Shown: positions 3,458-37,124 of the stretch, one piece after another | How the letters are laid out: each line of letters opens with the position of its first letter | Numbering within the stretch: position 1 is the stretch's first letter | Origin: a virus | Virus record (IMG/VR): IMGVR_UViG_3300049811_000810 | Location: 1 to 37,124 of that record | Reading direction: 5' to 3' (one strand) | DNA length: 37,124 nt | Made by a program: the position numbers and the translations under genes | The notes under the pieces: model-generated | The model's database searches: none | What the model saw: the letters and a program-made list of their open reading frames with translations, nothing else | Told to the model about the DNA's origin: nothing

Positions 3458-3461
3458 GTGC

Positions 3462-16505: not shown

Positions 16506-16611
16506 AGAACTCGAGGCACTGCGCCGCAACATCAAGGCCGCCGCCGACGCAAGCGACAACCGCTGGGACGAGCGCATCGCGATCGTCCGTGAACGACAGG
16601 TACCGCCATGA
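16408..16611 (+). CDS. Small helical phage protein (67 aa)
   Basis: A 67-residue product from ATG 16408, well placed after a Shine-Dalgarno (CAGGAGAC, 8-10 bases upstream), overlapping the 3' part of the lipoprotein gene by 98 bases in another frame. It is almost entirely helical and amphipathic: MEIAAVIAAVQAATELVRGG, then SAEELEALRRNIKAAADASD. Proteins of this size and character are common in phage lysis or tail regions but have no assigned function. Its stop overlaps the collar-fibre ATG (ATGA). The start is better supported than the lipoprotein's terminal extension in the same stretch, which argues that this frame is the real coding one there. Confidence 0.5.
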   Translation: MEIAAVIAAVQAATELVRGGMRLIESSRAVSAEELEALRRNIKAAADASDNRWDERIAIVRERQVPP

Positions 16612-17507
16612 CCACCACCATCCAGACGAGACGCGACACGACCGCAGCGTGGACCTCGGCGAACCCGACGCTGCCTGACGGCCAGCTCGGGCTCGAACGC
16701 ACGACCCCGCCGGGAGTGCGTCTGAAAGCCGGCGACGGCACGACGCCGTGGAACAGTCTCGGCTACCTCTGTCCGCCGCTCGTGAATCCGACCGGCGGCG
16801 GCAACAACTACGCGCCGATCGACGGTCCGGCGTTCACCACGGCGCTGTCCTCCGCCGGACCGGCGATCTTCGGTTCGACGGTGTCCATCGTCGGTGCGCT
16901 GACGCTCTCGGGCGGCGGAACGACGACCGACACGGCGCTCGGTGGAGCCGCAGGAACGATCGCGAACAAGCGGTATGCCGACGGCGCGACGCCGATCGGC
17001 ACGGTGCATTTGTGGGCGGGACCGCACGGTTCGGTCCCGCCCACATCGTCCGGCGTCGAGTGGCTGGTGTGCAACGGCCAGGCGGTGAGCCGAACGACCT
17101 ACGCGGCGCTCTTCGCGCTCGTCGGCAGTCTGTACGGGCCCGGCGACGGGGTCACGACGTTCAACCTCCCTGACCTCCGCGCACGGGTGCCCGTCGGCAA
17201 CTCCGACGCGGGCCTCGGCGGGCCGGCGCTCGGTGCAGGGCTGACGGCGCGACCGCTCGCGGCGACCGGCGGTGCGGAGACGCACACGCTGACGGTCGCC
17301 GAGATGCCTGCGCACCGCCACACGTTCAACAGCCAGAACACCGCAGCGGCGGCGGGGGGCGGCTACGCGCTCGCAAACGTCAACGCGGGCGCTGGCACGA
17401 ACCTCACGGGCTTTGCGCCCGGTGCGATCAACGAAACCGGCGGCGGCGGCGCGCACGCCAACTTGCAGCCGTTCCTCGCCCTCAACTACATCATTCGCGC
17501 ACGCTGA
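16608..17507 (+). CDS. Tail fibre protein with Mtd-type N-terminal and phage tail collar domains
   Basis: The 299-residue product (ATG 16608) begins with a short beta domain like the major tropism determinant N-terminal domain (QTRRDTTAAWTSANPTLPDG, then VRLKAGDGTTPWNSLGYL, residues 1-52). A phage tail collar domain follows at about 128-200 (GVEWLVCNGQAVSRTTYAAL, TTFNLPDLRARVPVG). After that comes the usual companion of that domain, ETHTLTVAEMPAHRH (about 220-240), and the closing GGGAHANLQPFLALNYIIRA. Collar-domain proteins assemble at fibre or baseplate tips. It is a distinct second fibre type next to the 587-residue fibre gene. No reverse transcriptase or variable repeat was seen nearby, so no diversification system. 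Identification is firm. Confidence 0.85.
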   Translation: MTTTIQTRRDTTAAWTSANPTLPDGQLGLERTTPPGVRLKAGDGTTPWNSLGYLCPPLVNPTGGGNNYAPIDGPAFTTALSSAGPAIFGSTVSIVGALTLSGGGTTTDTALGGAAGTIANKRYADGATPIGTVHLWAGPHGSVPPTSSGVEWLVCNGQAVSRTTYAALFALVGSLYGPGDGVTTFNLPDLRARVPVGNSDAGLGGPALGAGLTARPLAATGGAETHTLTVAEMPAHRHTFNSQNTAAAAGGGYALANVNAGAGTNLTGFAPGAINETGGGGAHANLQPFLALNYIIRAR

Positions 17508-22730: not shown

Positions 22731-25700
22731 GCCGAATGGACGTCCTCGCCGTTCCGTCGACGTTGCCGGGCGGACTCCGCTCGTCGCCGTTCCGTCTGCA
22801 GCCCGATCCAAAGGTGTTCGCCGAGGAGGCGCGACTCGCCGGCGTGCCCGAGGCGGAGATTGTCGACCGCTACTTCACCTTCGAACGCGAACGCTGGCTA
22901 CCCGAAATGCGGTCGGTGTGGGCCGAGGAAGTGAAGGCGACCTACGGCGAGGTCGACGAGGACCGCATCGACGCGATGTTCCTCGACTTCATGGAGGGAC
23001 GGCCGCTCGTCGCTCCCGACGACCAGGACGGCTGGCTCGTCCGTGAAGTGAAGGACCTCGCAGACGGTGCGCTCACGAGCGCCGGGCGACTGGTCGCGGA
23101 CGGCGTCGCCGGTCTCGGCATGGTCGCGCTCGACAACGTCGTCGGTCGCTGGCTGGGCTCGAAGTTCGACTGGGCGGGCGTCGACCCCGACGAAGAGACG
23201 GCGCTCTATCAGCGCATGGCGCTCGTGCAGCAGCTCCGCGAGCAGTTCGGCGTCGCCGACGACCCGCGCAGCCGGGCGAGCGGCGTCGGTTCCTTCCTCG
23301 GCGAGGCGGCGACGAACACCGGTGCGTCCGCCGGCATGATCGTGGGCGGTCCGATTGCCCTCACGGCCGGACTCGCGATGTTCGGCGGCACGGGCGCGAC
23401 GAGCGCGGGAGACGATCTCGACCGGTTCACGGCGCGTCGGCGCGACCTCGAGCGGGCGATGGGGCTCGCGACGACGGAGCTGCCGGGCGGCACGCAGCGT
23501 GCGGCGAACCGCATGGTCGCCGGCGGCATCGAAGCCGGCGCGGAGTTCCTCGACACGGTGCTCACGCGCGGCATCTTCGGCCTCGGCTCGCTCGGCAAGG
23601 CCGCGAGCCGCAAGGCTGCGCAGGCCGTCCTCGGCGACGTCGCGAAGGGGCTCGCGAAGGAATCCGCTGAGGAGCTGGTCGCGGCGACTGCGAAGCAAGG
23701 AGCGAAGGCCGCGCCCGGTCTGATCGCGTCCGCCTGGTCGAAGCTCACCGCTGCAGCCGCAGCCGAAGGCGTGTCCGGCATGGCGACGCGTGCGATCCGG
23801 AGCGGCGTCACGGAGGGAGCCGAAGAAGCGGTTACTGCGGCCGTGCAAGGTGCCTCGAAGCTCGCACAGGGCTACGACCCGACCTACACGCTGTCCGACG
23901 TCCTGTCGGAGACCGGACGGGCGGCGGTCGTCGGCGGAGCGCAGGCGGTGGTCGGCGCTCCGGTGTTCGAGTTCCTTCGATCACGGGCGGTGCGTCGAGC
24001 CACGCGCGAGATGGAAGCCGAGCTGCGGCCGGCGCTCGACGATGCGGCAGCCATGGACGAAGTCTCCGCCGAAGAGGCGCTCGTCGAGCGGGACCGCCAG
24101 ACGGTGCTCACGGCAGACGGACCCGATGCCCTGCGCGCGGACCTTGCCGCGATGCTCGCCGGCGACTCGACGCAGACGGCCGTCGCGGTCGATCGCGCGT
24201 CGTTCATCCGGGACGTCGGTCCCGAGGAACGCGAACTGATGGAGCGGCACGCGATCGACGTCCGCTGGGATCCGCGGACGGACGTCGCGTACCTCTTCCC
24301 GGCGACCGACGGTGCGGCCGCGGCCGCGGTCGAGTCGGCGATCAAGGACGGCGACGGCGCGCGGCTCCTCGGCTACGCCGGGTCGGACTCGCTTGGCGAT
24401 GAGATCACGGGCGGCGTCGTCTTCCGCGACAACCTCGGCCGACCGATCCGGGTCTGGCCGACGACCGAAGCGAATCGCCGCGACGTGCTGGCCGCGGCGG
24501 GGTTGTACGCCCGAGCGACGGGACTGGAGGCGGCTCCGGCGGATCGAGCAGGGTTCGACGCCGCACGGAAGGGCGCGGCCCTGGTGGCACGCTCTGGACG
24601 GGGCGCTCGACGCCCGCAACCGGTCGAGGATCGACCGGTCGACCCGTTGCGGACCGCTCGTGCGGAGCGAAACGTCCTCACGCGACTGCGCACGCGGGCG
24701 GAAGGGATGCTGCGTGCGCGGCAGTCGCGGACGGGCGAGGCGGTCGAAGGCGTCGTCGTCGAACGCGTCGCGGACGACCTCCTGCCCAACTCGCAGCGGG
24801 CGATGGTCGAACGCTGGCGCGGGCTCGGAAAGGACGTCGTCGTCCTCACCGGGAAGGCGAACGTGCGGTCCGCGACCGGCAAGTCGCGCGAGATCGACCT
24901 TCCGCTGGATGGGTGGTTCGATCCGGAGACCCCGAACACCCTCTACCTCGCGACCGACCGGAACGGCCGGTTCACGGGTCGGAGCATGATGGCGACGCTC
25001 TGGCATGAGGCCATGCACGCGCTGCAGCGAGGCGAGCCGGGCGCGCGCCGATACGCCCGCCAGCTCGCGGCGGTCGATCCAGCGACGAGCCTGCGGGCTG
25101 CGAGCCAGTACCTCGAGCAAGGTGGATCGGCGCCCGAACTCCTGATCGGGACGCCGGCGCCACGACCGGCAGCGGTCGAAACACCAGGGCGAGCACCGCG
25201 TCGGGCACCGGCTCGGATCGCCGGGACGGCCGACACGTATGCGGTCGAAGGCGCGCCGACACTCGCATCGATTGTTCGTCCGCCGGCGGCGGTGAACCCG
25301 GCCGCCGCTCGACGGCGTCCGGACGCAGCCACACGGCTTGCGGCGATCGAGGAAGTGCCGCAGGCGACGACGCAGGCGCTCGAGTCGGCGACCGTCCGCC
25401 GAGCGGTCGAGGCGGTGAGCGCGACGCCCGCCGAGCGGCAGGCCCGCCGGATGTGGAGTCGGTTCGTCGATCACGTCGCGTATCGGCTGACGCGGCTCGG
25501 GTTCCGCGGCCGGATCGCGCAGCAGCTTCTCGCCGAGATCGAACAGCGGGCGCGAGGCGTCGCCGATGCCGAACTCGAGCTCGTCCGCGTCGTCGCCGAT
25601 CGAGCGGCCGCTCGTGCCGCGGCGACCGAGGAGACGGTTCGCGCAGCGAGCGAGGCCGCACGATCCTTCACGACGGCCGCTGTGCCTCGCCAGAGGGCGA

Positions 25701-28700
25701 TCCCCCTCGCAGAGGGGCCGACGTCCTCCCCCGATCTTCCGATCGCTCCTGAGTCCGCTGCCGGCCCCACGTCGGCGACGGAGTCGATTCCGCTTGCGAA
25801 CCCTGGCACGTCGACGGTCGACGAGTATCCTGTCGCCGATGAGCAAACCGACGCCCCAACCGAAGCGACCGACGGATCCGACGGCGGAGCGGGAGCAGAT
25901 GCAGGCGATCGAGCGGCGGATGCGGGCGGACCTCGCTCGACCCGCCTCGGACGCGCCACGGCTCTCCGCCTTGCGTCCGGCGGCGTCCTCGAAGCCCGCT
26001 ACGCCGCCATCGAAGCCGACGAGCTGATCCCGTCGCACGACGCGCGACGCAACTTCGCCCGCAATCCCGACGGCGACCTGAACGAACGCCCCTACGACGA
26101 TCCGGTCGAAGGCCGCGCCTCGCGCGAGACCGTCGAGCGGATCGCTTCGAATCCCGATCCCGAGCTGCTGACGACGGACACGCCGACGCCTGTCGACGGG
26201 CCGCCCGTCGTGAGCCCTTCGGGCGTCGTCTACGGCGGCAACGCCCGCACCATGGCGGTGCAGCTCGCCTACAGCCGCGACGGTGCACAGGCGGACCGGC
26301 TCCGTGAGGGCATGCAGGCCGCCGCCGCGAAGTTCGGACTGTCGGTCGAAGGCCTCGCGCAGCCGCTCATCGTCCGCGTCGTCGGCGACACCTACGCGCC
26401 GGGCGAACTGAGCCGGATCCTGAACGAGAGCCTCACGACCGGCAAGTCGACGGCGACGGAAGCAGTGAGTCGAGCGAACAAGCTGACATCGCGAACGGCC
26501 GCGACGATCGGACGGCTCCTCAACCCGGCGAACGGCGAGAGTCCAAGCCTTCGAGAAGTCCTAGCCGACCCGGATGCTGCCGCCACCATGGTTCGCGCAT
26601 TCGTCGCCGACGGCGTCTGGAGCGAACAGGACCTGCCTCGGTTCACCGAGGGACGCAGCTTCCGCCTGAACGACGAGGGCAAGCTCGTCATCGAGCGGAC
26701 GCTCCTAGCGACGATCATCGACGATCCATCGGTTCTGTCTCGGACGACGCCATCCGTTCGGAGGGCGCTGATGGGTGCGCTGCCCGATCTTCTGCGGGCA
26801 ATCCAAGCGGACGGCGGTCGCGGAGAACGCGTCAGGACCGTGCTGAGGACTGCGGCCGAGGCGTTCGGTCCGTGGAAGTCTTCGGGCGACACGTTGCTGG
26901 ACCACTTCCGCGACCAGCAGTCGATGACGCCGCCGCCCGGCTTCGGCGATGGGGCGGTCATGGCGGTGGTCGGAGCGCTCGATGCGTTGAGTCCAAGGCA
27001 GTTTCGGGGTCGCTCGGCCGACCTGGTAGACCTCCTCGGTCTTGACCGAAGTGATGGTCCGATGCTCGGGTTTGACGGCGGCATACAGCTTGAGCCCCTC
27101 GACGCAGACGAATCTCTGCGACGCGCGTTCAGGCTGGAGGACGAGCGGCCGTCTCCCGCGCCAGAACAGCCTCCTCCACCGGGCGGAACAAGCCCGCAAT
27201 TGCCGGACCCGCCACTGTCGCCTCGGCCGCTTGCACCGACGCCGACCGACGATGCGGGATCAACGGTCGAGACGCCGACGCCGGAGCTCCCGCAACGGCC
27301 GGTGGACGTTGGCTCGCAGCTTCTGGCGGATGAAATGCAGCAGCAATCAGGTGCCGACGACGATGCGCCGCTTCCGCGTGGCGAGCCGATCGACGGCCTG
27401 GCGAGCATTCGTCGTTTTCTTTTCCAGAACGCGGCCGGGCTGCGTGACGCGATCGAGCAGGACCGTGTGAAGTGGCGCGGGGCGCATGTCTGGATCGAAC
27501 GCACGGTCGTCGACAGCTTCGCGGAGCTGCGACGCATGCAGAGCGCACTCGAACGGACGATTGGCAAGACTTTGCCCGACGCATTCAATCCGTACCTCCA
27601 GCAACGCCTGCTTCGCGGCCGGCTGGGCGCGCTGCAGAAGGAGCTGGAGCGGCAGTACATGGAGCGGTTGCAGGCGCTTCCCGACCTCGGCCTGTCCGCG
27701 GAGATGCTGAGCAACTACCTCTACGCGCGCCATGCGCCCGAGCGGAACGCGTACATCGCGAAGATCAACCCCGGACTGACCGACGGCTCGGGCATGAGCG
27801 ACGTGGAGGCGTCGGCCATCATGGCGAGCTTCGCGTCGAAGGGGCTTCTGCCGCGGTTGGAGGCGGAGGCGGCTCGCTGGGACGCGTACCTCAGGCAGCA
27901 CCTCGAAATGCGGCGACAGACGGGCCTGACGCCCGAGGATGTCTACCAGAGGCTGGTGCACACCTACAAGCACTACGTGCCGCTCCGCGGTCTGGCAAGC
28001 GACCACACCGAGGACGAGTCCGACCCGATGCGCGAGGGGTACCGCCTGGGGCGCGGAATGCCGAAGGCGCTCGGTCGCACGTCGAAAGCCCAGAACATCC
28101 TCGCGCAGATTGCTTCGGTGCACGAGGACACGTTGCGCCGCGTCGAGCGCAACAAGGTGTGGAACCACATGCTGCGATTGTCGCGGGCGTACCTCGACGA
28201 CGAGGGCATCGTCTCGATCGTGCGTCCGACCCGCCGCGTGGTCGTCAACGGCAAGGTGCAGGAGCAGCTCGATCCGATGTGGAAGGACAACCCCAATCAC
28301 GTCGGGGTCTTCACGGATAGGGCGTTCGTGCACGACGGCCATCAATACGCGAAGGGCGACTTGGTCATCATGCGTTTGGACAGCCGGGCGCTCGCTGCTG
28401 CGATCCGCGACGTGCCCGATCCGAACGTCTTCATGCGCGTGCTGGGAGTCATCAACAGCGTCCGCCGATTCGTGAACACGGGCCCGGGAAATCCGCCGTT
28501 CGCGATCGTGAATGCCGTGCGCGACTTCGGGCACGCAAACCTGCGCAACTACGCGATCTACGGAGGCCGGGTCGCGCTCGAAGCGGATCGCCGCTACCTG
28601 CCGTCGTTCTGGAACGTCCTGACCGACTCCGCCAAGGACCGGCGGCCCTCTGGCTGGTACGGCAAGTTCGTCGCTGCGGGCGGGGAGACCCTGCACTGGC

Positions 28701-30049
28701 GGGAGTCGGGCCTGAAGGAACGGTCCCGCGACTTCGAAAAGATGCAGCGGGCGATCGCGGGCGGATCGTGGGAGACGGCGAAGGCGGCGCTCCGCACCGC
28801 GTGGAACCACTACGAATCCGTGTTCCGTGCCGCCGAACTGGCCAATCGCGTCGCGTTGTTCGCGACGTTGTCGGAGCGGGGCTGGACCCCGGCGCAGGCC
28901 GCGCTTGCGGCACGCGAGGTCACGGTCGACTTCGGATTGATGGGCGACGCCGGGTTCGTCCTCAACACCCTCTACCTCTACTCGAACGCCGCCATCCAAG
29001 GCATGCGGTCGGTGCATCAGGCGACGCAGACGACGCGCGGAAAAATCACGTTGCCGGGGCTGGTGGCGGCCGGGTTCTTGTCGGCCGTGCTCGCCCGGGC
29101 GCTCGGCGGCGACGACGAGGAGACCGGCATGGCCCGCTGGGATCTCCTGCGCGGGAACGAGAAGGCGACGAACCTGTACCTGCCCGCCCTCAACGGCTCC
29201 ATGGTGTCGATCCCGATGCCGTTCGGCTTCAATCTGCCGTTCTACATCGGGACGACCATGCACGACGTTTGGTCGGGCGAGCTCGACCCCGGCGAAGCGA
29301 TGGCGAGCGTGTTCGTGGCGACGATGGACTTCGTCAACGCACTGGGGGGTTCGAACGTCGGTCAGAACCCGGTGTCGGCGCTCGCTCCGTCCGAGCTTCG
29401 GCCGCTCGTCGAGCTTGCGATGAACGCCGACTATGCGGGTCGCCCGATCAGCCCGGGCGCATCGCCGTTCGAGTCGACGCCGTTGCCGCGCAGCCAGGAG
29501 ATGTTCGACGGCACGTCGCAGTGGTCGGCGGACTTCGCGCAGTGGCTGAACGAAGCCACGGGCGGCAACGACATCGATGCCGGGTTCCTCGACTTCAGTC
29601 CGAACCAGATCGAGTACGTCATCGGCTACTACCTTGGCGGCTTCGGTCGTTTCGTGAAGCGAAGCATCGACTTTGCCGGCGGCGCGCAGCCGCGGACGGC
29701 AGGCAACGCCCCGATCGTCGGTCGATTCATCGAGGACGGCTCGCGCGACGACCGCCGCGTGCACGAGCGCTATCGCGGCATCCGAGACGGCGTTGTTCGA
29801 GTCGAACGCGCGCTCAAGCATCCGGACCCGGCATTCATCGACCGTTATCTCGACGATAACCAAGACGCGGTCGCGTTGTTTGAGATGGTCCGCGACGCGG
29901 AGCGCTTGCTGCGCGACATGAAGCAGGTGCAGCGGTCCACGGACGACCAGGGCATCAAGGCGGAGCTTCAGGCCGGGGCCGCCTTGGTTCGGGCCGAAGT
30001 GGTCCGGGCGGCGCGGGAGGTCGAGCGGTTAGGTGCGGCCACCGACTGA
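22727..30049 (+). CDS. Giant polyvalent virion protein (zincin, DdrB-ParB-like and LPD38-like regions)
   Basis: A 2440-residue protein from GTG 22727 (GTGA overlap; ATG 22736 is the alternative). Residues about 110-230 hold hydrophobic helices (GASAGMIVGGPIALTAGLAM), and TEGAEEAVTAAVQGASKL (near 365) is a phrase common in such proteins. A zinc-protease motif LWHEAMHALQ occurs at H760-E761-H764, preceded by a strand. After a Pro/Glu/Ala linker, about 1090-1230 resembles the DdrB-type ParB/sulfiredoxin fold (VEADELIPSH-like start, PPVVSPSGVVYGGNARTMAV). About 1900-1945 contains GVINSVRRFVNTG and NPPFAIVNAVRDFGHANLRN, typical of the LPD38 domain of large polyvalent proteins. Another hydrophobic helix follows (LPGLVAAGFLSAVLARALGG, near 2110). 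Such proteins are packaged and ejected to defend or take over the cell. Domain identity is recognised by pattern; activities are inferred. Confidence 0.78.
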   Translation: MSRMDVLAVPSTLPGGLRSSPFRLQPDPKVFAEEARLAGVPEAEIVDRYFTFERERWLPEMRSVWAEEVKATYGEVDEDRIDAMFLDFMEGRPLVAPDDQDGWLVREVKDLADGALTSAGRLVADGVAGLGMVALDNVVGRWLGSKFDWAGVDPDEETALYQRMALVQQLREQFGVADDPRSRASGVGSFLGEAATNTGASAGMIVGGPIALTAGLAMFGGTGATSAGDDLDRFTARRRDLERAMGLATTELPGGTQRAANRMVAGGIEAGAEFLDTVLTRGIFGLGSLGKAASRKAAQAVLGDVAKGLAKESAEELVAATAKQGAKAAPGLIASAWSKLTAAAAAEGVSGMATRAIRSGVTEGAEEAVTAAVQGASKLAQGYDPTYTLSDVLSETGRAAVVGGAQAVVGAPVFEFLRSRAVRRATREMEAELRPALDDAAAMDEVSAEEALVERDRQTVLTADGPDALRADLAAMLAGDSTQTAVAVDRASFIRDVGPEERELMERHAIDVRWDPRTDVAYLFPATDGAAAAAVESAIKDGDGARLLGYAGSDSLGDEITGGVVFRDNLGRPIRVWPTTEANRRDVLAAAGLYARATGLEAAPADRAGFDAARKGAALVARSGRGARRPQPVEDRPVDPLRTARAERNVLTRLRTRAEGMLRARQSRTGEAVEGVVVERVADDLLPNSQRAMVERWRGLGKDVVVLTGKANVRSATGKSREIDLPLDGWFDPETPNTLYLATDRNGRFTGRSMMATLWHEAMHALQRGEPGARRYARQLAAVDPATSLRAASQYLEQGGSAPELLIGTPAPRPAAVETPGRAPRRAPARIAGTADTYAVEGAPTLASIVRPPAAVNPAAARRRPDAATRLAAIEEVPQATTQALESATVRRAVEAVSATPAERQARRMWSRFVDHVAYRLTRLGFRGRIAQQLLAEIEQRARGVADAELELVRVVADRAAARAAATEETVRAASEAARSFTTAAVPRQRAIPLAEGPTSSPDLPIAPESAAGPTSATESIPLANPGTSTVDEYPVADEQTDAPTEATDGSDGGAGADAGDRAADAGGPRSTRLGRATALRLASGGVLEARYAAIEADELIPSHDARRNFARNPDGDLNERPYDDPVEGRASRETVERIASNPDPELLTTDTPTPVDGPPVVSPSGVVYGGNARTMAVQLAYSRDGAQADRLREGMQAAAAKFGLSVEGLAQPLIVRVVGDTYAPGELSRILNESLTTGKSTATEAVSRANKLTSRTAATIGRLLNPANGESPSLREVLADPDAAATMVRAFVADGVWSEQDLPRFTEGRSFRLNDEGKLVIERTLLATIIDDPSVLSRTTPSVRRALMGALPDLLRAIQADGGRGERVRTVLRTAAEAFGPWKSSGDTLLDHFRDQQSMTPPPGFGDGAVMAVVGALDALSPRQFRGRSADLVDLLGLDRSDGPMLGFDGGIQLEPLDADESLRRAFRLEDERPSPAPEQPPPPGGTSPQLPDPPLSPRPLAPTPTDDAGSTVETPTPELPQRPVDVGSQLLADEMQQQSGADDDAPLPRGEPIDGLASIRRFLFQNAAGLRDAIEQDRVKWRGAHVWIERTVVDSFAELRRMQSALERTIGKTLPDAFNPYLQQRLLRGRLGALQKELERQYMERLQALPDLGLSAEMLSNYLYARHAPERNAYIAKINPGLTDGSGMSDVEASAIMASFASKGLLPRLEAEAARWDAYLRQHLEMRRQTGLTPEDVYQRLVHTYKHYVPLRGLASDHTEDESDPMREGYRLGRGMPKALGRTSKAQNILAQIASVHEDTLRRVERNKVWNHMLRLSRAYLDDEGIVSIVRPTRRVVVNGKVQEQLDPMWKDNPNHVGVFTDRAFVHDGHQYAKGDLVIMRLDSRALAAAIRDVPDPNVFMRVLGVINSVRRFVNTGPGNPPFAIVNAVRDFGHANLRNYAIYGGRVALEADRRYLPSFWNVLTDSAKDRRPSGWYGKFVAAGGETLHWRESGLKERSRDFEKMQRAIAGGSWETAKAALRTAWNHYESVFRAAELANRVALFATLSERGWTPAQAALAAREVTVDFGLMGDAGFVLNTLYLYSNAAIQGMRSVHQATQTTRGKITLPGLVAAGFLSAVLARALGGDDEETGMARWDLLRGNEKATNLYLPALNGSMVSIPMPFGFNLPFYIGTTMHDVWSGELDPGEAMASVFVATMDFVNALGGSNVGQNPVSALAPSELRPLVELAMNADYAGRPISPGASPFESTPLPRSQEMFDGTSQWSADFAQWLNEATGGNDIDAGFLDFSPNQIEYVIGYYLGGFGRFVKRSIDFAGGAQPRTAGNAPIVGRFIEDGSRDDRRVHERYRGIRDGVVRVERALKHPDPAFIDRYLDDNQDAVALFEMVRDAERLLRDMKQVQRSTDDQGIKAELQAGAALVRAEVVRAAREVERLGAATD

Positions 30050-30171: not shown

Positions 30172-30864
30172 GTGCAGCAACAGGGGCTTGGACCCAACTT
30201 CTCGTGGGGTGCGTACACACCGGCGCAGGTCTCTGCCCTCGCGGGCGTCGAGTCGCCAGCCAAGGTGCGGCGGTGGCTCCTCGGCGACACGATGGGACAG
30301 GCCGCGTTGGAGGCCTTCTACGGCACTGAATCAGGCGTCCTGTCGTTCATCGATCTCATTCAGATTGTCGCGTTGCAACGGATCCGAAAGCACCGCGACG
30401 TGCCGCTTCCAAGGCTGCGGGACGCGATGCGGCGGGCCAAGGAGGAGTACGGGATCGACTTCGCGCTTGCGCGTCGGCACCGGCTCCTCAAGTTCGGCCG
30501 CGAGCTCGTGCTGGAACTGGGCGAAGAAACAAAGCAGTTCGTGCAGCTCACTGGGCGGCACCGAGCCAACTTGTTGATTCCAAAGGTGGTCGAGCCGATC
30601 CTCAAGCAGGTCGCCTACGACCCGAGAGACGGGCGAGCTTCTCGCTGGATGCCGATGCGCGGAGCTGGCTGCGCCGTGGTGCTCAGCCCCGAGTTCAACA
30701 TGGGCGCGCCGGTGGTCTCGCCCGGCAACGTCGGCGTGCAGGCCTTGTGCGACGTGGCGGAAGGCGAGGGCTCTCCGTTGCGCGCCGCGGTGATGTTCGG
30801 CGTCGGCGTCGAAGAGGTGCGTCTCGCGGTGCGCTTCAGGAACAGGATTGGGAAAGCCGCGTGA
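30172..30864 (+). CDS. vapB: VapB45-like antitoxin (DUF433)
   Basis: GTG 30172 is chosen because AGGAG lies about 6 bases upstream; an earlier in-frame GTG at 30112 lacks one. The 230-residue product has a helix-turn-helix at its start (AYTPAQVSALAGVESPAKVRRWL, residues about 13-35, written in two parts), then LSFIDLIQIVALQRI and RKHRDVPLPRLRDAM, as in VapB45-type antitoxins. A C-terminal DUF433 segment follows (VVLSPEFNMGAPVVSPGNVG, then VEEVRLAVRFRN). The family neutralises a PIN-like toxin and usually represses its own operon through the DNA-binding domain. It is coupled to the toxin by a GTGA overlap. It is also an addiction module for the prophage. Confidence is good. Confidence 0.75.
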   Translation: MQQQGLGPNFSWGAYTPAQVSALAGVESPAKVRRWLLGDTMGQAALEAFYGTESGVLSFIDLIQIVALQRIRKHRDVPLPRLRDAMRRAKEEYGIDFALARRHRLLKFGRELVLELGEETKQFVQLTGRHRANLLIPKVVEPILKQVAYDPRDGRASRWMPMRGAGCAVVLSPEFNMGAPVVSPGNVGVQALCDVAEGEGSPLRAAVMFGVGVEEVRLAVRFRNRIGKAA

Positions 30865-31319
30865 AAGTCGTGTTCGACGAGAACTTCTCGCCGCGGGGCG
30901 TTGAGCACCTGCGCGGCCTGAACAGTTCGTTTCTGCGGACTCCGTTGGAGATCACCTACCTGCCCGAGCTGCTCCGCGAGTTGGGCCACGGGGACGGTCG
31001 CGGCGTGCGCGACGAGACGTGGGGGCCGATTGTTCAGCGGCTCGATCGAGCAGTCGTGGTGACGTTTGATCATGGGCGTGGGCGCGACGCATCGCTCGGC
31101 AAGCCGCTCCCGATCGTCCTGCCGCAGTGCGGCGTGACTGGATTTTGGTTGCCGTCGACGCTGTGCCAGCGGCCAGTGTTGGAGAAAGTCGTGGTCGCGG
31201 CGGCGCTCTTGCCGCTGATCGAGACGACGGCGGAGAAGCAACCCGCAGGGACGCGGTTTCGCGTCACCCGCGAGACGACGATTGCATTGAAGCTGTGGCC
31301 GATGAAGCCCGAGAGCTGA
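30861..31319 (+). CDS. vapC: VapC45-like PIN-fold toxin
   Basis: The 152-residue product starts at GTG 30861, overlapping the antitoxin stop. It opens with the classic MKVVFDENFSPRGVEHLR, with D6 as the first metal-binding acid of the PIN-like fold, and continues with DETWGPIVQRLDRAVVVTFD, providing the second acidic set before the GRGRD turn. PIN-like toxins cut RNA. The gene order antitoxin then toxin with tight coupling is normal for VapBC45. It lies just downstream of the virion genes and is the last plus-strand gene before two minus-strand genes. The pair could stabilise the lysogen or block superinfecting phages. Confidence 0.75.
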   Translation: MKVVFDENFSPRGVEHLRGLNSSFLRTPLEITYLPELLRELGHGDGRGVRDETWGPIVQRLDRAVVVTFDHGRGRDASLGKPLPIVLPQCGVTGFWLPSTLCQRPVLEKVVVAAALLPLIETTAEKQPAGTRFRVTRETTIALKLWPMKPES

Positions 31320-31337
31320 CGTCGGTGCGGGATCGGC

Positions 31338-31970
31338 TCACAGGATGCGCTGCGACGAGGGCGCCGCCCGGGCGACAGGCGGAAAGTCCGTGTCGACATT
31401 GGCCAGCTTGGATGCCGGCAAGCCGTTTGGCTGCGCCGGTGGCGCTGGTGCAGTCTGCTCCACGTGGGTAGATGCGGAAGCGATGGCGGGCCGGGTACGT
31501 TCGTGTGGCCGTGGCGTCTGCGGTGATGCCGCCCCCCGAGCACACTCCGCTTGCTCCGCGGCGATGGCCAGCTCGATCATCAGAATGTCGTGCCGAGCCA
31601 TGGCTCGCGCCAAAGCACGCAGCCTGGGGTCTTTCCGACGGGCGGGAACAACGACTGAGATCGCCTTGAGAATGATGACGGAGACGAACGGAGAGCCCCA
31701 CAAGGCCGCGAGCCCGGTCGTGATCGGCGTGAACCACCGCGTCGTCAAGCCCGAGGCGATCACGAGCACGATGAACGCGACGGCAAGCACCAACAGCGGC
31801 AGATCGAACTGCACAAGCGTCGTGTTGTCGTCGACGCCGCTGACCGTCGTGTAGCGTGTTTTGGCTGCATCGATCAAACGCCAGACGATGGCGATCCCAA
31901 GGCACCACCAGAAAAGCGGCGTCGGAAACAGTTGCTCCCAAGGCACGGCTGTGCGGCTCCTTCGCGTCAT
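31338..31970 (-). CDS. Multi-pass membrane protein of the lysogenic region
   Basis: Reads right to left from ATG at 31970-31968 (an alternative start at 32102 would only add a basic, Arg-rich leader, MGRRRRGRHRAGRLR). The 210-residue product has hydrophobic stretches at about 15-34 (PTPLFWWCLGIAIVWRLI), 58-80 (LPLLVLAVAFIVLVIASGLT), and 85-110 (FTPITTGLAALWGSPF; VSVIILKAISVVV). After these comes a basic, then Ala/Pro-rich soluble tail (from about 120). No family recognised. It is transcribed with the upstream small RHH-like gene away from the switch region and converges on the toxin gene (18 bases apart). Membrane proteins expressed from the prophage immunity side are frequent superinfection-exclusion or lysogenic-conversion factors; this is inference. 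Confidence 0.55.
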   Translation of the reverse strand: MTRRSRTAVPWEQLFPTPLFWWCLGIAIVWRLIDAAKTRYTTVSGVDDNTTLVQFDLPLLVLAVAFIVLVIASGLTTRWFTPITTGLAALWGSPFVSVIILKAISVVVPARRKDPRLRALARAMARHDILMIELAIAAEQAECARGAASPQTPRPHERTRPAIASASTHVEQTAPAPPAQPNGLPASKLANVDTDFPPVARAAPSSQRIL

Positions 31971-32055
31971 TGTGCCCGCCGTCGTCGTCGGTCGGCGGGG
32001 CCGGTTCGGCGATCGGCGACACCGCGTCGCCGGTCGAGGCTCTTCAGAATCGCAA

Positions 32056-32379
32056 CTACGAAGCCGCCCGGCGCGATGACGGCCGCGACGTCGGCGTCCC
32101 ATCGACCGGGCTCGACTTCCCCTCCGCGGCGGATGCCGCGGGGGCCTCCTGCTTTTCCGGTTTCCAGTCTCGGGCGATCGCCTCGCGCACTTTGGCGAAC
32201 CACTGCATGCGCTGGTCGTGCGTCAACGACTGGAGCACCATCCATCCCGCGAGGGCGACAGTGTTCTGGTCGTAGCCGTTCGCTTCGCACCACGCTTCAA
32301 ACGGCTGGCGAGCCGTGTTGAAGGTGAAGCACTTCTGTGGCGATCGGGTCGAGGTTTGGACCGGTTTGCCTGCTGGCAT
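32056..32379 (-). CDS. Small RHH-like protein, minus-strand side of the switch
   Basis: Starts at ATG 32379-32377 and codes for 107 residues. Residues about 16-55 resemble the ribbon-helix-helix of Arc/CopG regulators: a strand KCFTFNTA, helix ARQPFEAWCEANGY, then a second helix from DQNTVALAGWMVLQSLT, followed by HDQRMQWFAKVREAIARDW. The C-terminal 30 residues are low-complexity (PAASAAEGKSSPVDG). The start codon lies inside a 15-base inverted repeat (32378-32392), which could be its operator. It faces a second RHH gene across a shared regulatory region. DNA binding is inferred from a weak pattern match, so moderate to low confidence. Confidence 0.5.
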   Translation of the reverse strand: MPAGKPVQTSTRSPQKCFTFNTARQPFEAWCEANGYDQNTVALAGWMVLQSLTHDQRMQWFAKVREAIARDWKPEKQEAPAASAAEGKSSPVDGTPTSRPSSRRAAS

Positions 32380-32392
32380 AGGTGCAACCTAT
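32378..32392. promoter_or_regulatory. Inverted repeat at the minus-strand start codon
   Basis: ATAGGT and ACCTAT flank the 3-base centre GCA, directly overlapping the translation start of the minus-strand RHH-like gene. On the minus strand this also provides AGGT in the region just before the ATG. Such a symmetric site could be an operator bound by a dimeric repressor, or could fold the mRNA start into a hairpin. Seen directly, function inferred. Confidence 0.4.
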
Positions 32393-32427
32393 CCACGCTC
32401 TAACTGTCTCGCAAACAACGACTTAGG

Positions 32428-32488
32428 CACTGCAATCATTTGCGCCACTGCAATTTCACGAATGGGTATTGACAACTGCAATGCAGTG
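32428..32488. promoter_or_regulatory. Operator array: repeated CACTGCAAT half-sites
   Basis: CACTGCAAT occurs at 32428-32436 and 32446-32454 (18 bp apart, about 1.7 helical turns), and again as ACTGCAAT at 32475-32482. A fourth, inverted half-site is ATGCAGTG at 32481-32488, giving the near-palindrome ACTGCAATGCAGT. The last two sites sit in the spacer of the plus-strand promoter, so a protein bound there would block it. The array lies between two divergent RHH-like genes. It reads like a phage operator, the repressor being one or both neighbouring proteins. Confidence 0.55.
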
Positions 32489-32496
32489 GCTACAGT
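32469..32496 (+). promoter_or_regulatory. Sigma70-type promoter with a near-leaderless transcript
   Basis: Perfect -35 TTGACA at 32469-32474, a 16-base spacer, and -10 TACAGT at 32491-32496 (4 of 6 consensus). Transcription starting 6-9 bases after the -10 would begin at about 32502-32505, at or a few bases before the ATG at 32505, leaving no room for a Shine-Dalgarno. The spacer holds an ACTGC-AAT-GCAGT inverted repeat. Strength of the hexamers is direct; leaderless start is inference. Confidence 0.6.
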
Positions 32497-32504
32497 GATT
32501 CATC

Positions 32505-32795
32505 ATGCTGCCGACCACAACGGTGACGGTGTCAGTCCCCGACGCCGAATGCTTTCGGAGCCTCAGCAGGCGCCTTCGCGTGCCGCACCATCAGTTGTTC
32601 GGTGGCGTCGTTCGGTACTTCTCGCAGCTCAGCCATGAGCAGCAGGAGTGCGAGCTGGGGCTTCGCATCGCGGCGTCGCCGTCCGTGAACGACACCCGAC
32701 AGCATGCGCCGCGCACGGGTGCAAAGCAACCCCGAAGGCGGGCGAAATCCTCCCGAACAGCCCCCACCCACGAGGCTCGCTCGTCGTCCCGTTGA
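32505..32795 (+). CDS. Ribbon-helix-helix regulator (Arc/CopG type), leaderless
   Basis: ATG 32505, 9 bases after the -10 element, gives 96 residues. The first ~45 form a ribbon-helix-helix: a strand TTTVTVSVP, helix DAECFRSLSRRLR, then helix PHHQLFGGVVRYFSQLS, like Arc, Mnt or CopG proteins that bind DNA as dimers through the strand. The remaining half is Arg/Thr/Ser-rich and probably disordered. It faces the minus-strand RHH-like gene, with a repeat array between them. A terminator hairpin with a T-run overlaps its 3' end, so it is probably expressed alone. The likely role is a repressor or anti-repressor in the lysogeny switch. Fold call is reasonable, role is inference. Confidence 0.6.
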   Translation: MLPTTTVTVSVPDAECFRSLSRRLRVPHHQLFGGVVRYFSQLSHEQQECELGLRIAASPSVNDTRQHAPRTGAKQPRRRAKSSRTAPTHEARSSSR

Positions 32796-32812
32796 CGGCG
32801 GGCGGACTTTTT
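32783..32812 (+). terminator. Rho-independent terminator after the RHH gene
   Basis: Stem GTC...CCCG (32783-32791) pairs with CGGG...GAC (32799-32807) with a two-base internal mismatch, loop 32792-32798, and TTTTT follows at 32808-32812. It overlaps the RHH stop codon (32793-32795) and would end the short transcript from the upstream promoter, keeping the regulator separate from the next genes. Confidence 0.55.
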
Positions 32813-32838
32813 CCTGATTCCAACTCGAAAGGACACGC

Positions 32839-33027
32839 ATGGATCGCGTACTCGGACTCCTCGGATCGTTCTGCCTCGGCGGGCTGTATGGGCTCGCGAC
32901 GGCGCCCGCGCTCGTGCTCATGGGGTTGAGCTGGACCGCGGCAGTCATCGTTCTGGCGGCGTTCACCGCGATCGTGTGGTCGATCCCGTCGCTCCCTCCG
33001 ATGCGGGGTGTCGCGTGCCGTCGCTGA
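32839..33027 (+). CDS. Small two-helix membrane protein
   Basis: ATG 32839 has GAAAGGAC six bases upstream, a good site. The 62-residue protein has two hydrophobic helices (GLLGSFCLGGLYGLATAPAL, about 6-25, and SWTAAVIVLAAFTAIVWSI, about 31-49), a short turn between them and a basic end (RGVACRR). It could be a small inner-membrane protein or holin-like, but no family is recognised. The next gene starts inside its last 13 bases, so the two are translationally coupled. It follows the terminator, so a promoter must lie in 32813-32838 or transcription reads through; none is evident. Confidence 0.5.
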   Translation: MDRVLGLLGSFCLGGLYGLATAPALVLMGLSWTAAVIVLAAFTAIVWSIPSLPPMRGVACRR

Positions 33028-33263
33028 CCGTCACGGTCTATCCGGGCGAGGTGTTGCAGCTCGATCTGCCGGGCGGCGACGTCGCGGTCATCGCACCCGA
33101 TCTCGAGCACCGGACGCGCATCGCGATCGTTGCCCCGCTCTCGGTGCGCGTGACGCACCCCGAGCTCGAGGCGTGCGCGGCCGCCGATCGGCTGGTCGAG
33201 CGGCGGGCGAAGATCCAGCGTCGTCTGGCCGCAAAGGCGGAGCGGACGCCAGCGCCCGCATGA
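33015..33263 (+). CDS. CsrA-like RNA-binding regulator
   Basis: GTG 33015 overlaps the upstream membrane protein. The 82-residue product has the CsrA layout: strand LTVTVYPGEVLQL (in place of the usual LTRKVGESIVI), strand GGDVAVIAPDL, then RTRIAIVAPLSVRVTHPELE, matching the family pattern R-I-G-I-x-A-P-x-x-V-x-V-x-R-x-E-L. A basic C-terminal helix follows (VERRAKIQRRLAAKAER). CsrA binds GGA-containing mRNA leaders. The critical arginine of the last strand (R44 in E. coli) appears as histidine or proline here, so binding may be altered. Start by coupling; no Shine-Dalgarno. Identification is moderate, and phage versions are rarely noted. Confidence 0.6.
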   Translation: MPSLTVTVYPGEVLQLDLPGGDVAVIAPDLEHRTRIAIVAPLSVRVTHPELEACAAADRLVERRAKIQRRLAAKAERTPAPA

Positions 33264-33317
33264 ACGGAACACTCCTTCGCTGCCTGGGCGGTCGCTCCGC
33301 CGCCCGGGCGGCTTTTT
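33264..33317 (+). terminator. CGGAACACTC motif followed by hairpin and T-run
   Basis: Just after the stop, CGGAACACTCCTTCGCTGC (33266-33284) leads into the stem GCCTGGGCGG (33282-33291) pairing with CCGCCCGGGC (33300-33309), one G-T pair, loop 33292-33299, and TTTTT at 33313-33317. A closely related motif follows the next gene (33827 on). It is a good intrinsic terminator separating the CsrA-like gene from the following gene. Confidence 0.6.
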
Positions 33318-33343
33318 CTCGCGGAGCGGACTGGAGAGCACGC

Positions 33344-33826
33344 ATGAACGAGACGACTGAAGCACCGACCGAACCTGCGACCGACGCCCCGAGCGGGGTC
33401 GAGACGACCGACGAGTCGACGATCGACTTTGACGATCTGTCGAGCGAGGACCAGACCGCGATCGCGAATCTGCCGCTGCCGTCGACGCGGTTTGCCGATC
33501 CGTGCCGGATCGTCATGGTGCACGGCGTCGGCGTGGGGCCGCGTCCGGGGATCGTGATTCATGGTTCGCATGCGATTCCGAAGTCTTCCGAGTCCGCACG
33601 CGTCCCGATCTTCGTGGACGCAGCCGTGCAACTGCACAGCGTCGTCGACGCTGAGTACATGATCGCGTCGGGCATCAGCGCTCCAGTGAAGACGGCGTGC
33701 GACCTTCCGCTCTTCGAGCCGCTCACGTCGGTGGAGCGTGCATCGGTCCAGAAGGTGTGGGTGCAGTGGGCCGAGTGGCCTCATCCGGTCCCGTTCTCCG
33801 CGCACCACATCGACCGCCCGAGCTGA
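33344..33826 (+). CDS. Hypothetical acidic protein (160 aa)
   Basis: ATG 33344 is preceded by GGAGAGCACG. The first ~35 residues are disordered and acidic (TEAPTEPATDAPSGVETTDE, then STIDFDDLSSEDQ). The rest forms a small alpha/beta domain with RIVMVHGVGVGPRPGIVIHG, then a hydrophobic VPIFVDAAVQLHSVVDAEYM, and closing QWAEWPHPVPFSAHHID. GVGVGPRPG is glycine-rich but does not match a nucleotide-binding loop I know. No family recognised. It lies in the short operon of small regulatory genes before the excisionase, flanked by hairpins on both sides. Confidence 0.5.
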   Translation: MNETTEAPTEPATDAPSGVETTDESTIDFDDLSSEDQTAIANLPLPSTRFADPCRIVMVHGVGVGPRPGIVIHGSHAIPKSSESARVPIFVDAAVQLHSVVDAEYMIASGISAPVKTACDLPLFEPLTSVERASVQKVWVQWAEWPHPVPFSAHHIDRPS

Positions 33827-33954
33827 CGGAACACTCTCTTTTGCTGCGCCGGTTCGCCGACGGGCGGGCCGGCGCCTTCCTCCTTGCACGGTGGGGATGG
33901 GGGCGGCGTCGTGCCGCCGCTCCCGTCCTCACCCAACCACTACACCGGTCCCGC
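33827..33954 (+). promoter_or_regulatory. Hairpin-rich spacer before the excisionase gene
   Basis: This 128-base spacer contains no gene. It starts with CGGAACACTCTCTTTTGCTGC, cognate to the motif at 33266. A nested hairpin follows (GCGCCGG 33846-33852 with CCGGCGC 33869-33875, inner CGCC/GGCG) and then CTTCCTCCTT. A second hairpin is GGCGGC (33902-33907) and GCCGCC (33913-33918) with loop GTCGT. No T-run of note. It may stop or slow transcription between the accessory genes and xis-int. No clear promoter for the excisionase is visible. Confidence 0.35.
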
Positions 33955-34206
33955 ATGGACGCAGAGCGACCACCTACGCCCACCGCACCGACCATCGCCC
34001 CTGTCGCCGTGGGCGCGGCCGAGGCTGCGGCGATGCTCGGCATCAGCCGTTCGACGTTCTACGTCCTGCTGAAGTCCAAGCGGCTGCCGGCTCCACGCAT
34101 CGCGTGCGGTCGGCTGCGCCGCTGGTCGGTTGCCGACATCGCGCGGGTCGCGGCCGAAGGACTCGAGGACCCGCCGGACGTGCGTCGCAGGAAGGCGCGA
34201 GCATGA
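33955..34206 (+). CDS. xis: Excisionase / AlpA-like helix-turn-helix protein
   Basis: ATG 33955 gives 83 residues. A Pro/Thr-rich leader precedes the MerR/AlpA-type helix-turn-helix VGAAEAAAMLGISRSTFYVL, followed by KSKRLPAPRIACGRLRRWSV, the strand-turn typical of phage excisionases and AlpA proteins, and a helix AADIARVAAEG-like end. The C terminus is basic (RRRKARA). Such proteins bend DNA at att sites and favour excision. It is immediately followed, through an ATGA overlap, by the integrase gene, exactly the arrangement expected. Family call is good, role from context. Confidence 0.75.
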   Translation: MDAERPPTPTAPTIAPVAVGAAEAAAMLGISRSTFYVLLKSKRLPAPRIACGRLRRWSVADIARVAAEGLEDPPDVRRRKARA

Positions 34207-37124
34207 AGCGCCAGCCGAAGGAAGCGGCGACGCGCGTCGGCCAGGGCCGCGGCTCGATCTGGCGCCAGAAGGGCCGATCCGTCTACATGGCGTGGGATTA
34301 CCGCGACGGGCGGTGGGGCCGCTACTCGACGAGGATGCGTGACCAGAAGGCTGCGCAGCGCGTGGCCGACGACTGGCTCAGGCAGGGCGAAGCTCGCGAA
34401 GCCGGCGGGCTCCCATTCGACGACCACGCCCGACGCCCGCTCGCCGAGCACATCGACGCGTTCGAGGAGCACATGCGCACGCTGCCGCGTCCACGGACGG
34501 AACGGCATCTGGTGCGGCTCTTCGCCACGATTCGGTGGGCGGCGCGGGTAGCCAAGTGGACTCGAGTGCAGCACATCACCGCGCCATCGGTGCAGGCGCT
34601 CCTCGCGCAGCGCAGGAGCGAGGGCAATTCCCCGGCGACCGTGAACCGCGACTGCGCGTATCTCCAGCGATTCTCTCGGTGGCTGTTCCTCTTCGACCGG
34701 CTCCCGCTCGATCCGCTGAAGACCATGGTGAAGGCGAACGAAGAGCTGAGCAGGACCTATCGGCGTCGAGCGTTCACGCCGGACGAGCTGCAAGCGATCT
34801 ACCGGGCGGCGCTCGCGAGCCCGCGCAAGTTCGGCGGCATGACCGGCGAGGATCGGTGCATGGCTTATATGTTCGCCGCGTCGACGGGGTTCAGGCGTGC
34901 GGAGTGCGCGTCGCTGACGCCGCGTTCGTTCCGGTTCGACGCGCTGCAGCCCCACGTGCACCTTGCGGCGAGCGCGTCGAAGAACGGCAAGGCGGCGGCT
35001 CAACCTCTGCCGGCGTGGCTGGTCGAGCGGCTGCGCCCGTGGCTGGCGCGGAAAGACCCGGACGCGCCGCTGTGGCCGCTTCTCTCGGGGACTGCGGAGA
35101 CGCGGATTCCATGGCGGGACTACGCCGCGGCCGGCATCGCGAAGCTCACGCACGACGGCAAGGCGGACTTTCACTGCCTGCGGCACACCTTCGGCACGTC
35201 GCTCGCGAAGGCGGGCGTGCTCCCGCAGGTCGCGCAGCGGCTGATGCGTCACTCGAGCATCAACATCACCATGCAGTTCTACACCCACATGAGCCAGGCG
35301 GACATGGCGGCCGGCGTCGGGCTTCTCGAACACCGTCTCGGGGTGCCCGACGTGCCGGAAAATCGACCACACCGCTGCACCAGTGCTGCAACAATCGACG
35401 GACCGCAGCAGACGTCGGCGGACGATGAAGGCGACGAGGGCGGGTCGTTGGCGGTGCTGCCGACGCCCGAATCGCCCGGAGATTCGGGCGGTCGCGGACC
35501 ATCGCAGACGACGGCGGACACAAGCCCGGAGGGGTCGCGTGGGGCGTCCTCCGCCGACTACCATGCGTCCCTTCCGCCGCCCGGACCCCGACGAGGGGCC
35601 TTGGTGAAGCGGAGGCCGTCGGGTGTTCACCCCTCGCCTTGGGGACCCGCCGAAGATCGACGACGACCTACGAGATCCGCCATGACCGCCGCACCAGCCG
35701 CCACCGCTCAGCCCTCCTCGGCCTCCACCTTCGCCACGTGTCCGGTCGTCGAGGCTGCGATCGCGTCGATCCTGAAGGAGCTCAGGACCCGGCAGGCATC
35801 GATCACCGGTGCCCGACCGCCGGTCGGCGACGCGAAGGCGACGCTCGACGACTGGCTGCGTCGGTCGGCAGAGGTGAAGGGGCGTCCTGCGCTCTACCCC
35901 TACGTCGGCAGCGGCTTCGGCAACGGCCCGCTCGTCGAACTCCTGGACGGCAGCGTCAAGTGGGACCTGATCAACGGGATCGGCGTCCACATGTTCGGGC
36001 ACGGAGATCCTGCGATGGTCGAAGCGAACCTCCGCTCCGCTCTCGCGGACACGGTCATGCAGGGGAACCTCCAGTTCAACGCGGACTCGATCGAGTTCGC
36101 CGAACTCCTCGTCGCAGAGGCCGCCCGAAGCTCGAAGCTCGCGTACTGCTTCACCACGAATTCCGGCTGCATGGCGAACGAGTCGGCCCTCAAGGTCTGC
36201 CAGCAGAAGACGAACGCAGCTCCGCGCGTCATCGCGTTCGCGGACTGCTTCATGGGACGCTCGACGACGATGGCGCAGATCGGCGACGGGCCCGCCTACC
36301 GCGTCGGCGTCCCGTTGAACGTGCTCGTCGACTACATGCCGTTCTACGACCCCGATCTCGGGCAGCGCTCGATCGACATGGCGGTCTGGCACCTGAAGCA
36401 GATGATCCAGCGCTATCCGAAGCAGCACTCGTGCTTCGTGATGGAACTCGTGCAGGGAGAAGGCGGCTTCAACACGGCACCGCGCGAGTTCTTCCTGCCG
36501 CTCATGCAGCTCTGCCGCGAGCACGGCATCCCGGTCTGGGACGACGAAGTGCAGACCTTCGGCCGAACCACTTCGATGTTCGCCTTCGAGGCGCTCGGCC
36601 TCGGCGAGTACATCGACGTCGTCACGATCGGCAAGATGAGTCAGGCGTGCGCCGTCCTCTACACGAAGGACATGAACCCGAAGCCCGGCCTCCTGAGCGG
36701 CACCTTCCAGGCGAGCGGATCAGCGATCGCCGTCGGACTCGCCGCCCTCACCCGGCTCAGGGACGGCGGCTACTACGGTCCGGACGGCAGGATCGCGAAG
36801 CTCCAGAAGGCCTGGCGCGACCACGCGAACGCCTTCGTCGCCCGGCATCCCGAGTGGTTCCCCCCGGTGCGCACCTCGATGGGCGGACGCATGACCCACG
36901 TCGTCTCCGGTTCGGGCGGCATGATGCGGCTCACGCCGTTCGGAGGCGACAAGGACAAGATCATGAAGCTTCTGCACCGTCTCTTCGCGGACGGCGTGAT
37001 CGCGTTCTATTGCGGACACGATCCCTACCACCTGCGGCTCCTGCCCCCGGTCGGCGTGATGCAGCCCGAGCACTTCGGGCCGGTCTTCGAGATCTTCGAG
37101 AAGAGCTTCGCGGCCGTCGCCTGA
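34203..37124 (+). CDS. int: Tyrosine recombinase (integrase) in one open frame with a class III aminotransferase
   Basis: ATG 34203 overlaps the excisionase stop. The integrase part (about residues 1-383) has a glycine/arginine-rich arm-binding N terminus (GQGRGSIWRQKGRSVYMAWD), a SAM-like core-binding domain (about 85-170) and a complete catalytic set: R231 in STGFRRAEC, the HCLRHT box (H324, R327), H350 in LMRHSSINIT and Y360 in QFYTHM. The frame then has no stop: a low-complexity linker (about 390-493) leads to M494, where the aminotransferase begins. The 973-residue frame could be one fused protein, but two proteins with an in-frame start at 35682 are more likely. The integrase's own stop was probably lost when it joined host DNA. 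Integrase identity is very secure. Confidence 0.88.
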   Translation: MKRQPKEAATRVGQGRGSIWRQKGRSVYMAWDYRDGRWGRYSTRMRDQKAAQRVADDWLRQGEAREAGGLPFDDHARRPLAEHIDAFEEHMRTLPRPRTERHLVRLFATIRWAARVAKWTRVQHITAPSVQALLAQRRSEGNSPATVNRDCAYLQRFSRWLFLFDRLPLDPLKTMVKANEELSRTYRRRAFTPDELQAIYRAALASPRKFGGMTGEDRCMAYMFAASTGFRRAECASLTPRSFRFDALQPHVHLAASASKNGKAAAQPLPAWLVERLRPWLARKDPDAPLWPLLSGTAETRIPWRDYAAAGIAKLTHDGKADFHCLRHTFGTSLAKAGVLPQVAQRLMRHSSINITMQFYTHMSQADMAAGVGLLEHRLGVPDVPENRPHRCTSAATIDGPQQTSADDEGDEGGSLAVLPTPESPGDSGGRGPSQTTADTSPEGSRGASSADYHASLPPPGPRRGALVKRRPSGVHPSPWGPAEDRRRPTRSAMTAAPAATAQPSSASTFATCPVVEAAIASILKELRTRQASITGARPPVGDAKATLDDWLRRSAEVKGRPALYPYVGSGFGNGPLVELLDGSVKWDLINGIGVHMFGHGDPAMVEANLRSALADTVMQGNLQFNADSIEFAELLVAEAARSSKLAYCFTTNSGCMANESALKVCQQKTNAAPRVIAFADCFMGRSTTMAQIGDGPAYRVGVPLNVLVDYMPFYDPDLGQRSIDMAVWHLKQMIQRYPKQHSCFVMELVQGEGGFNTAPREFFLPLMQLCREHGIPVWDDEVQTFGRTTSMFAFEALGLGEYIDVVTIGKMSQACAVLYTKDMNPKPGLLSGTFQASGSAIAVGLAALTRLRDGGYYGPDGRIAKLQKAWRDHANAFVARHPEWFPPVRTSMGGRMTHVVSGSGGMMRLTPFGGDKDKIMKLLHRLFADGVIAFYCGHDPYHLRLLPPVGVMQPEHFGPVFEIFEKSFAAVA
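35340..35681 (+). other. Prophage/host junction region (attR expected here)
   Basis: Between the last integrase motif and the aminotransferase start the reading frame stays open but encodes Pro/Ser/Gly/Arg-rich, non-conserved sequence. A perfect 10-bp hairpin (CGCCCGAATC at 35464-35473, GATTCGGGCG at 35481-35490, loop GCCCGGA) and small CCCC/GGGG hairpins (35583-35600 and 35630-35644) are present. No tRNA was recognised on either strand. Because the left end is outside the window, no direct repeat can be tested, so the crossover position is unknown. Confidence 0.3.
35682..37124 (+). CDS. Class III (PLP-dependent) aminotransferase, likely host gene
   Basis: From ATG 35682 (480 residues) the sequence is a fold-type I aminotransferase: INGIGVHMFGHGDPAMVEAN near the start of the core, FTTNSGCMANESALKVCQQK (phosphate cradle, about 160-185), VMELVQGEGGFN, the PLP-ring aspartate in VWDDEVQTFGR (D288), and Schiff-base lysine K318 in TIGKM. 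GTFQASGSAIAVGLAALTRL follows. The usual DEVQTGFGRTG reads DEVQTFGRTTS here, so substrate cannot be told from the motif. Relatives transfer amino groups from ornithine, lysine or gamma-aminobutyrate-like amines to 2-oxoglutarate. The start is judged by similarity; the weak CGAGATCCGCC before it is a poor Shine-Dalgarno. The frame is continuous with the integrase. Enzyme class is secure, substrate unknown. Confidence 0.85.
   Translation: MTAAPAATAQPSSASTFATCPVVEAAIASILKELRTRQASITGARPPVGDAKATLDDWLRRSAEVKGRPALYPYVGSGFGNGPLVELLDGSVKWDLINGIGVHMFGHGDPAMVEANLRSALADTVMQGNLQFNADSIEFAELLVAEAARSSKLAYCFTTNSGCMANESALKVCQQKTNAAPRVIAFADCFMGRSTTMAQIGDGPAYRVGVPLNVLVDYMPFYDPDLGQRSIDMAVWHLKQMIQRYPKQHSCFVMELVQGEGGFNTAPREFFLPLMQLCREHGIPVWDDEVQTFGRTTSMFAFEALGLGEYIDVVTIGKMSQACAVLYTKDMNPKPGLLSGTFQASGSAIAVGLAALTRLRDGGYYGPDGRIAKLQKAWRDHANAFVARHPEWFPPVRTSMGGRMTHVVSGSGGMMRLTPFGGDKDKIMKLLHRLFADGVIAFYCGHDPYHLRLLPPVGVMQPEHFGPVFEIFEKSFAAVA

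Follow-up and report, generated by a model that had tools for sequence, protein, structure and literature searches.

Two small genes that diverge from a short gap beside a phage integrase raise the question of whether a lysogeny switch can be built from ribbon-helix-helix (RHH) proteins. An earlier note on this DNA had read the pair as a possible Arc/Mnt-like switch of this kind. The window, by which we mean the whole stretch of DNA that was analysed, comprises 37,124 bases (GC 68%) of IMG/VR record IMGVR_UViG_3300049811_000810 and is a portion of an integrated phage in a Phycisphaerae (planctomycete) genome. On its left, all on the plus strand, lie the genes for the terminase small subunit (3426-3968), the terminase large subunit (3969-5774), a portal/adaptor (5799-7943) and a coat protein (9302-10609; a weak PHROG match, but 39-48% identical to its counterpart in closer relatives), followed by a tail-collar protein (16608-17507) and a 2779-residue protein (21710-30049). 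The final 850 residues of the latter match huge phage proteins whose annotation carries no function (phrog_14770, E 1.7e-92), and a nucleoside 2-deoxyribosyltransferase-like protein is encoded at 241-1020 (plus strand; phrog_355, E 2e-18).

The right end of the prophage carries an excisionase-like HTH_17 protein gene (xis, 33955-34206, plus strand; phrog_66, E 6e-9) and a tyrosine integrase gene (34203-35681, plus strand; phrog_1, E 1e-40), which abuts a host class III aminotransferase gene (35682-37124, plus strand). From 35728 to the window end the DNA is ~82% identical to the aminotransferase gene in two Phycisphaerae genomes, which identifies the host as a member of this class and places the prophage end near 35.7 kb. 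The integrase frame continues into the host gene without meeting a stop codon (34203-37124, plus strand); an integrase-aminotransferase fusion is thus possible in the lysogen. When the phage is free, the integrase would end according to the sequence on the other side of attP. The linkage to an integrase that marks a phage lysogeny switch was found here, with xis, int and the host aminotransferase gene all downstream of the divergent pair.

The pair itself consists of P1, a putative small regulator of 107 aa (32056-32379, minus strand), and P2, a small basic protein of 96 aa (32505-32795, plus strand). Both open reading frames are present as the earlier note had placed them, diverging from a gap of 125 bp, and both have a coding-like third position, with GC by codon position of 0.59/0.57/0.81 for P1 and 0.64/0.58/0.77 for P2.

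The gap carries a cluster of repeats. Two exact copies of CACTGCAAT lie at 32428-32436 and 32446-32454 (plus strand), the second 18 bp after the first. The third of the direct copies previously counted is AACTGCAAT (32474-32482, plus strand), with one mismatch, and the reported inverted copy is indeed present as CACTGCATT (32480-32488, minus strand), again with one mismatch and overlapping copy 3. Together, copy 3 and the inverted copy form one 13-bp palindrome, ACTGC-AAT-GCAGT (32475-32487). Their position within a TTGACA promoter was borne out: the P2 promoter, TTGACA-16-TACAGT (32469-32496, plus strand), has its -35 box at 32469-32474 and its -10 box at 32491-32496, so that copy 3 begins at the final base of the -35 box and the palindrome occupies most of the 16-bp spacer. 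This is the sole sigma-70-like site in 30800-34300, with 10 of 12 matches, whereas shuffled sequences gave 0.2 +/- 0.5 such sites. P2 transcription is expected to start at about 32503, ~7 bases downstream of the -10 box; this would put the 5' end of the mRNA at the P2 ATG, and the message is therefore probably leaderless. No ribosome-binding site is visible ahead of this ATG.

How far such an array departs from chance was assessed with 1000 dinucleotide shuffles of the 125-bp gap. An exact duplicated 9-mer arose in 52 of the 1000, and a 9-mer with at least four copies on either strand, allowing up to one mismatch, in 3 (~0.3%), the statistic having been picked after the array had been seen. 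The CACTGCAAT array is thus more than chance, if not overwhelmingly so, and its location in a promoter spacer adds weight. A search of IMG/VR with the DNA pattern returned 24 contigs, nearly all of them nine-base tandem repeats, and no relative.

A second candidate site lies at the other edge of the gap. The inverted repeat noticed earlier on the minus-strand start codon is a perfect palindrome, ATAGGT-GCA-ACCTAT (32378-32392), covering the P1 start codon and ribosome-binding site. It is separate from and unrelated to the CACTGCAAT repeats, and is unique in the window at up to three mismatches (expected about 0.1). As RNA, it is predicted to fold into a hairpin across the P1 ribosome site, and so the palindrome may act either on DNA, as an operator, or on RNA, by hiding the ribosome-binding site. 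Control of P1 by CsrA binding to this start-codon hairpin was also considered and set aside, its support consisting of the hairpin and of an unproven CsrA likeness in a nearby gene product.

Are the two proteins RHH proteins? Neither falls into a known family; searches of Pfam, PHROG, NCBIfam and the PDB gave no significant RHH-family match for either, and a fold search of the PDB with both low-confidence models gave nothing meaningful, so that the RHH identity previously proposed for both was confirmed by neither sequence nor fold. The single-sequence AlphaFold2 models are of low confidence (pLDDT 58.7 for P1 and 53.4 for P2); in both, three helices are arranged in the same way behind an alternating stretch at the N terminus, with no strand assigned. 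In each protein the pattern is RHH-like: an alternating stretch (KCFTFN in P1, TTVTVSV in P2) that could be the RHH strand is followed by predicted helices at residues 24-33, 38-51 and 54-71 in P1 and at 14-24, 28-40 and 44-56 in P2, which sit where an RHH protein with a third helix would put them. We regard P1 as likely and P2 as plausibly an RHH protein, and these features weakly support the RHH reading overall.

Relatives of both proteins were sought in IMG/VR, phage records, 397 Phycisphaerae-class genomes and 50 terminase-related phages. For P1 the sole convincing homologue, among Phycisphaerae-class hits that were otherwise nearly all chance, is a protein of another Phycisphaerae genome (L103), whose score against P1 exceeded all 2000 of 2000 shuffles. 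Judged from these sequence comparisons, P1 belongs to a real family (P1/L103). L103 has no relative in IMG/VR, and its gene shares a short contig with a ParB-like gene (identified by eye) and other small genes. The first 46 residues of a weaker P1 relative, L229, touch the PHROG 'Arc-like repressor' profile (E 0.017); the L229 gene (L229:1495-1749, equivalent to L297:7905-8162) is solitary on a Phycisphaerae chromosome, with no obvious prophage around it. P2 found no homologue in any of these collections, and it resembles the P1 family no more than shuffles do (317/2000). P1 and P2 could not be established as paralogues: only 15 of 1000 shuffles equalled or bettered their local alignment, but that score came in part from low-complexity tails, and the cores were unsupportive. 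Homology to Arc and Mnt was not detectable either, by hhalign or by shuffle test; hhalign gave P of 0.09 and 0.36, no better than a Cro control (0.13) or shuffles.

The neighbouring genes suggest how the pair is transcribed. Downstream of P1, and likely co-transcribed with it, is an ORF with weak coding bias (31338-31970, minus strand) for a putative membrane protein of ~210 aa with two predicted TM stretches, which has no Pfam, PHROG or PADLOC match. On the other side, an intrinsic terminator overlies the P2 stop codon (32777-32812, plus strand; -22.3 kcal/mol, z -2.7). Beyond it come a 62-aa peptide with two hydrophobic stretches (32839-33027, plus strand) and an 82-aa protein (33015-33263, plus strand) whose CsrA/RsmN likeness is unproven, its best PDB sequence matches being RsmF/RsmN at E of only about 1; a second strong terminator-like hairpin follows at 33279-33318. 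Because of these two hairpins, P2 is likely transcribed as a single gene (monocistronic), uncoupled from xis and int.

From this arrangement a working model can be outlined. We infer two small DNA-binding proteins, most likely RHH dimers, that are transcribed away from each other, and one of which, P1 or P2, would recognise CACTGCAAT as a half-site. Occupancy of the ACTGC-AAT-GCAGT pair between the -35 and -10 boxes would turn the P2 promoter off, the two upstream direct CACTGCAAT copies would provide cooperative loading, and P1 would be controlled separately through the ATAGGTGCAACCTAT palindrome that covers its start. Mutual or auto-repression could then yield two states, with either the P1 operon or P2 on, and the membrane protein of the P1 operon would perhaps serve in superinfection exclusion.

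This layout can be compared with known systems. In the P22 record itself, the immI region reads sieA (minus), mnt (minus), a 90-bp gap, arc (plus) and ant (plus); the window reads two-TM membrane protein (minus), P1 (minus), a 125-bp gap and P2 (plus). Both thus have two small divergent regulator genes flanking a short gap, with a membrane-protein gene on the minus side. Unlike immI, however, this locus shows no ant gene after P2, which is closed by a terminator of its own, and the repeats differ in kind. The Arc/Mnt-like switch proposed earlier holds as a divergent two-regulator region beside xis and int with a P22-like layout, but neither Arc/Mnt homology nor an Ant-like gene goes with it. 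In P22, Mnt represses arc and ant, Arc represses mnt, and immI modulates the primary C2/Cro switch (PMC11016777); since the P22 RHH pair is secondary to C2/Cro, the analogy argues against inferring a master switch here. In the archaeal virus SSV1, the small RHH protein F55 maintains lysogeny by acting on tandem repeats located in early promoters as well as in the promoter of its own gene (PMC5569661, PMC9608457). The window is similar in having a small viral regulator, putatively RHH, with repeats in or near a promoter, but F55 is one protein acting on several target promoters of archaeal type, whereas the window has two divergent genes and one repeat cluster. By analogy, then, the layout appears P22-like and the repeat logic F55-like, and P22 mnt/arc and SSV1 F55 are precedents for RHH-based switches. 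The region also resembles lambda CI/Cro in its divergent genes, its candidate operators overlapping a promoter and a probable leaderless mRNA on one side, but differs in that no CI/Cro HTH protein is encoded at the P1/P2 locus.

Related phages bear on how much of the prophage the window covers. IMG/VR contains many terminase relatives with 40-49% identity, and these share structural genes with the window. P1 and P2 are absent from the 50 terminase-related phage records, a distant integrase match occurs in only one such record, and a tyrosine integrase was found in only 2 of the 36 relatives searched (L126-L175 set), many of these records being fragments. Since the relatives share the structural genes mostly without integrase, P1 or P2, the lysogeny module looks like an add-on in the lineage of the window phage. 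Among integrase relatives in 151 genomes, a matching xis lies on the same stretch in two, and none has P1 or P2 alongside. In three relatives (G413, G415 and G417), more than 15 kb separates the tail genes from the terminase genes or precedes the terminase. The window, by contrast, begins at the edge of its contig and has 3.4 kb ahead of its terminase genes; the prophage early region, left of the window, is therefore probably missing from the record. The earlier remark that no CI- or Cro-type repressor is visible is literally right, yet just upstream of the terminase small subunit lies a gene with a good ribosome-binding site for a 103-aa winged-HTH protein, MarR/IclR-like (3146-3457, plus strand; MarR_2 E 1e-5, narrowly missing the Pfam cut-off), which is absent from the related phages searched. 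Other regulators thus cannot be taken to be absent, and with this gene present and the early region probably missing, a switch of RHH proteins only cannot be concluded.

We put at even chances the reading that the P1/P2 locus is the divergent regulatory region of the prophage's lysogeny module, a small-repressor switch. The stronger version, in which two RHH-type proteins of an undescribed family, with the CACTGCAAT array and the palindrome, alone form the master lysis-lysogeny switch without CI or Cro, is unlikely. Of the competing explanations, the one that deserves most weight, at roughly half the standing of the small-repressor switch, is a secondary immunity region like P22 immI, in which the pair would control an accessory function (the membrane exclusion protein, the CsrA-like protein or an unseen antirepressor) and a classical repressor elsewhere would run lysogeny. 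The locus lies away from the packaging side and adjoins a membrane-protein gene, as does P22 sieA-mnt-arc; P22 immI is itself a non-essential, secondary immunity region acting on immC (PMC11016777). The winged-HTH gene and the probable loss of the left part of the prophage, where the three relatives hold their long intervals, point the same way, but no antirepressor family was recognised among the scanned ORFs and a terminator closes P2.

Two further explanations are each improbable. The proximity of xis and int, 1.1 kb downstream on the same strand, would suit local control of integration and excision, in which P1 and P2 regulate xis-int and not the lytic programme; two strong terminators nevertheless separate P2 from xis, and related xis-int pairs come without P1/P2-type genes. 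The other is a toxin-antitoxin module or plasmid-type partition locus, with an RHH antitoxin or centromere-binding protein on the repeat array; direct repeats with an RHH protein on them are the usual arrangement for ParD/CcdA-like antitoxins and for partition proteins of the ParG/ParR/omega type. No toxin, ParA or ParM family, however, turned up among 60 ORFs scanned from outside the main structural genes, PADLOC gave no hit, and P2 appears monocistronic. It is more doubtful still that these are unrelated small phage genes with a promoter, the repeat being partly chance and the RHH look coincidental. The lack of a P2 family match and the post hoc nature of the array statistic would fit such a view, but the coding bias of both ORFs, the P1 homologue, the overlap of promoter and repeats and the palindrome all speak against it.

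We conclude that the locus is probably a divergent regulatory region of the immunity type, whose two proteins make an unusual and mostly orphan pair. In the literature we found no phage of Phycisphaerae whose lysogeny control has been characterised. Should P1 and P2 maintain the prophage, they would be a bacterial parallel to what F55 does in SSV1, and two RHH proteins could make the divergent core that is normally built from CI and Cro. With a secondary role, too, the locus would add to planctomycete mobile DNA a family of small regulators (P1/L103) yet to be characterised.
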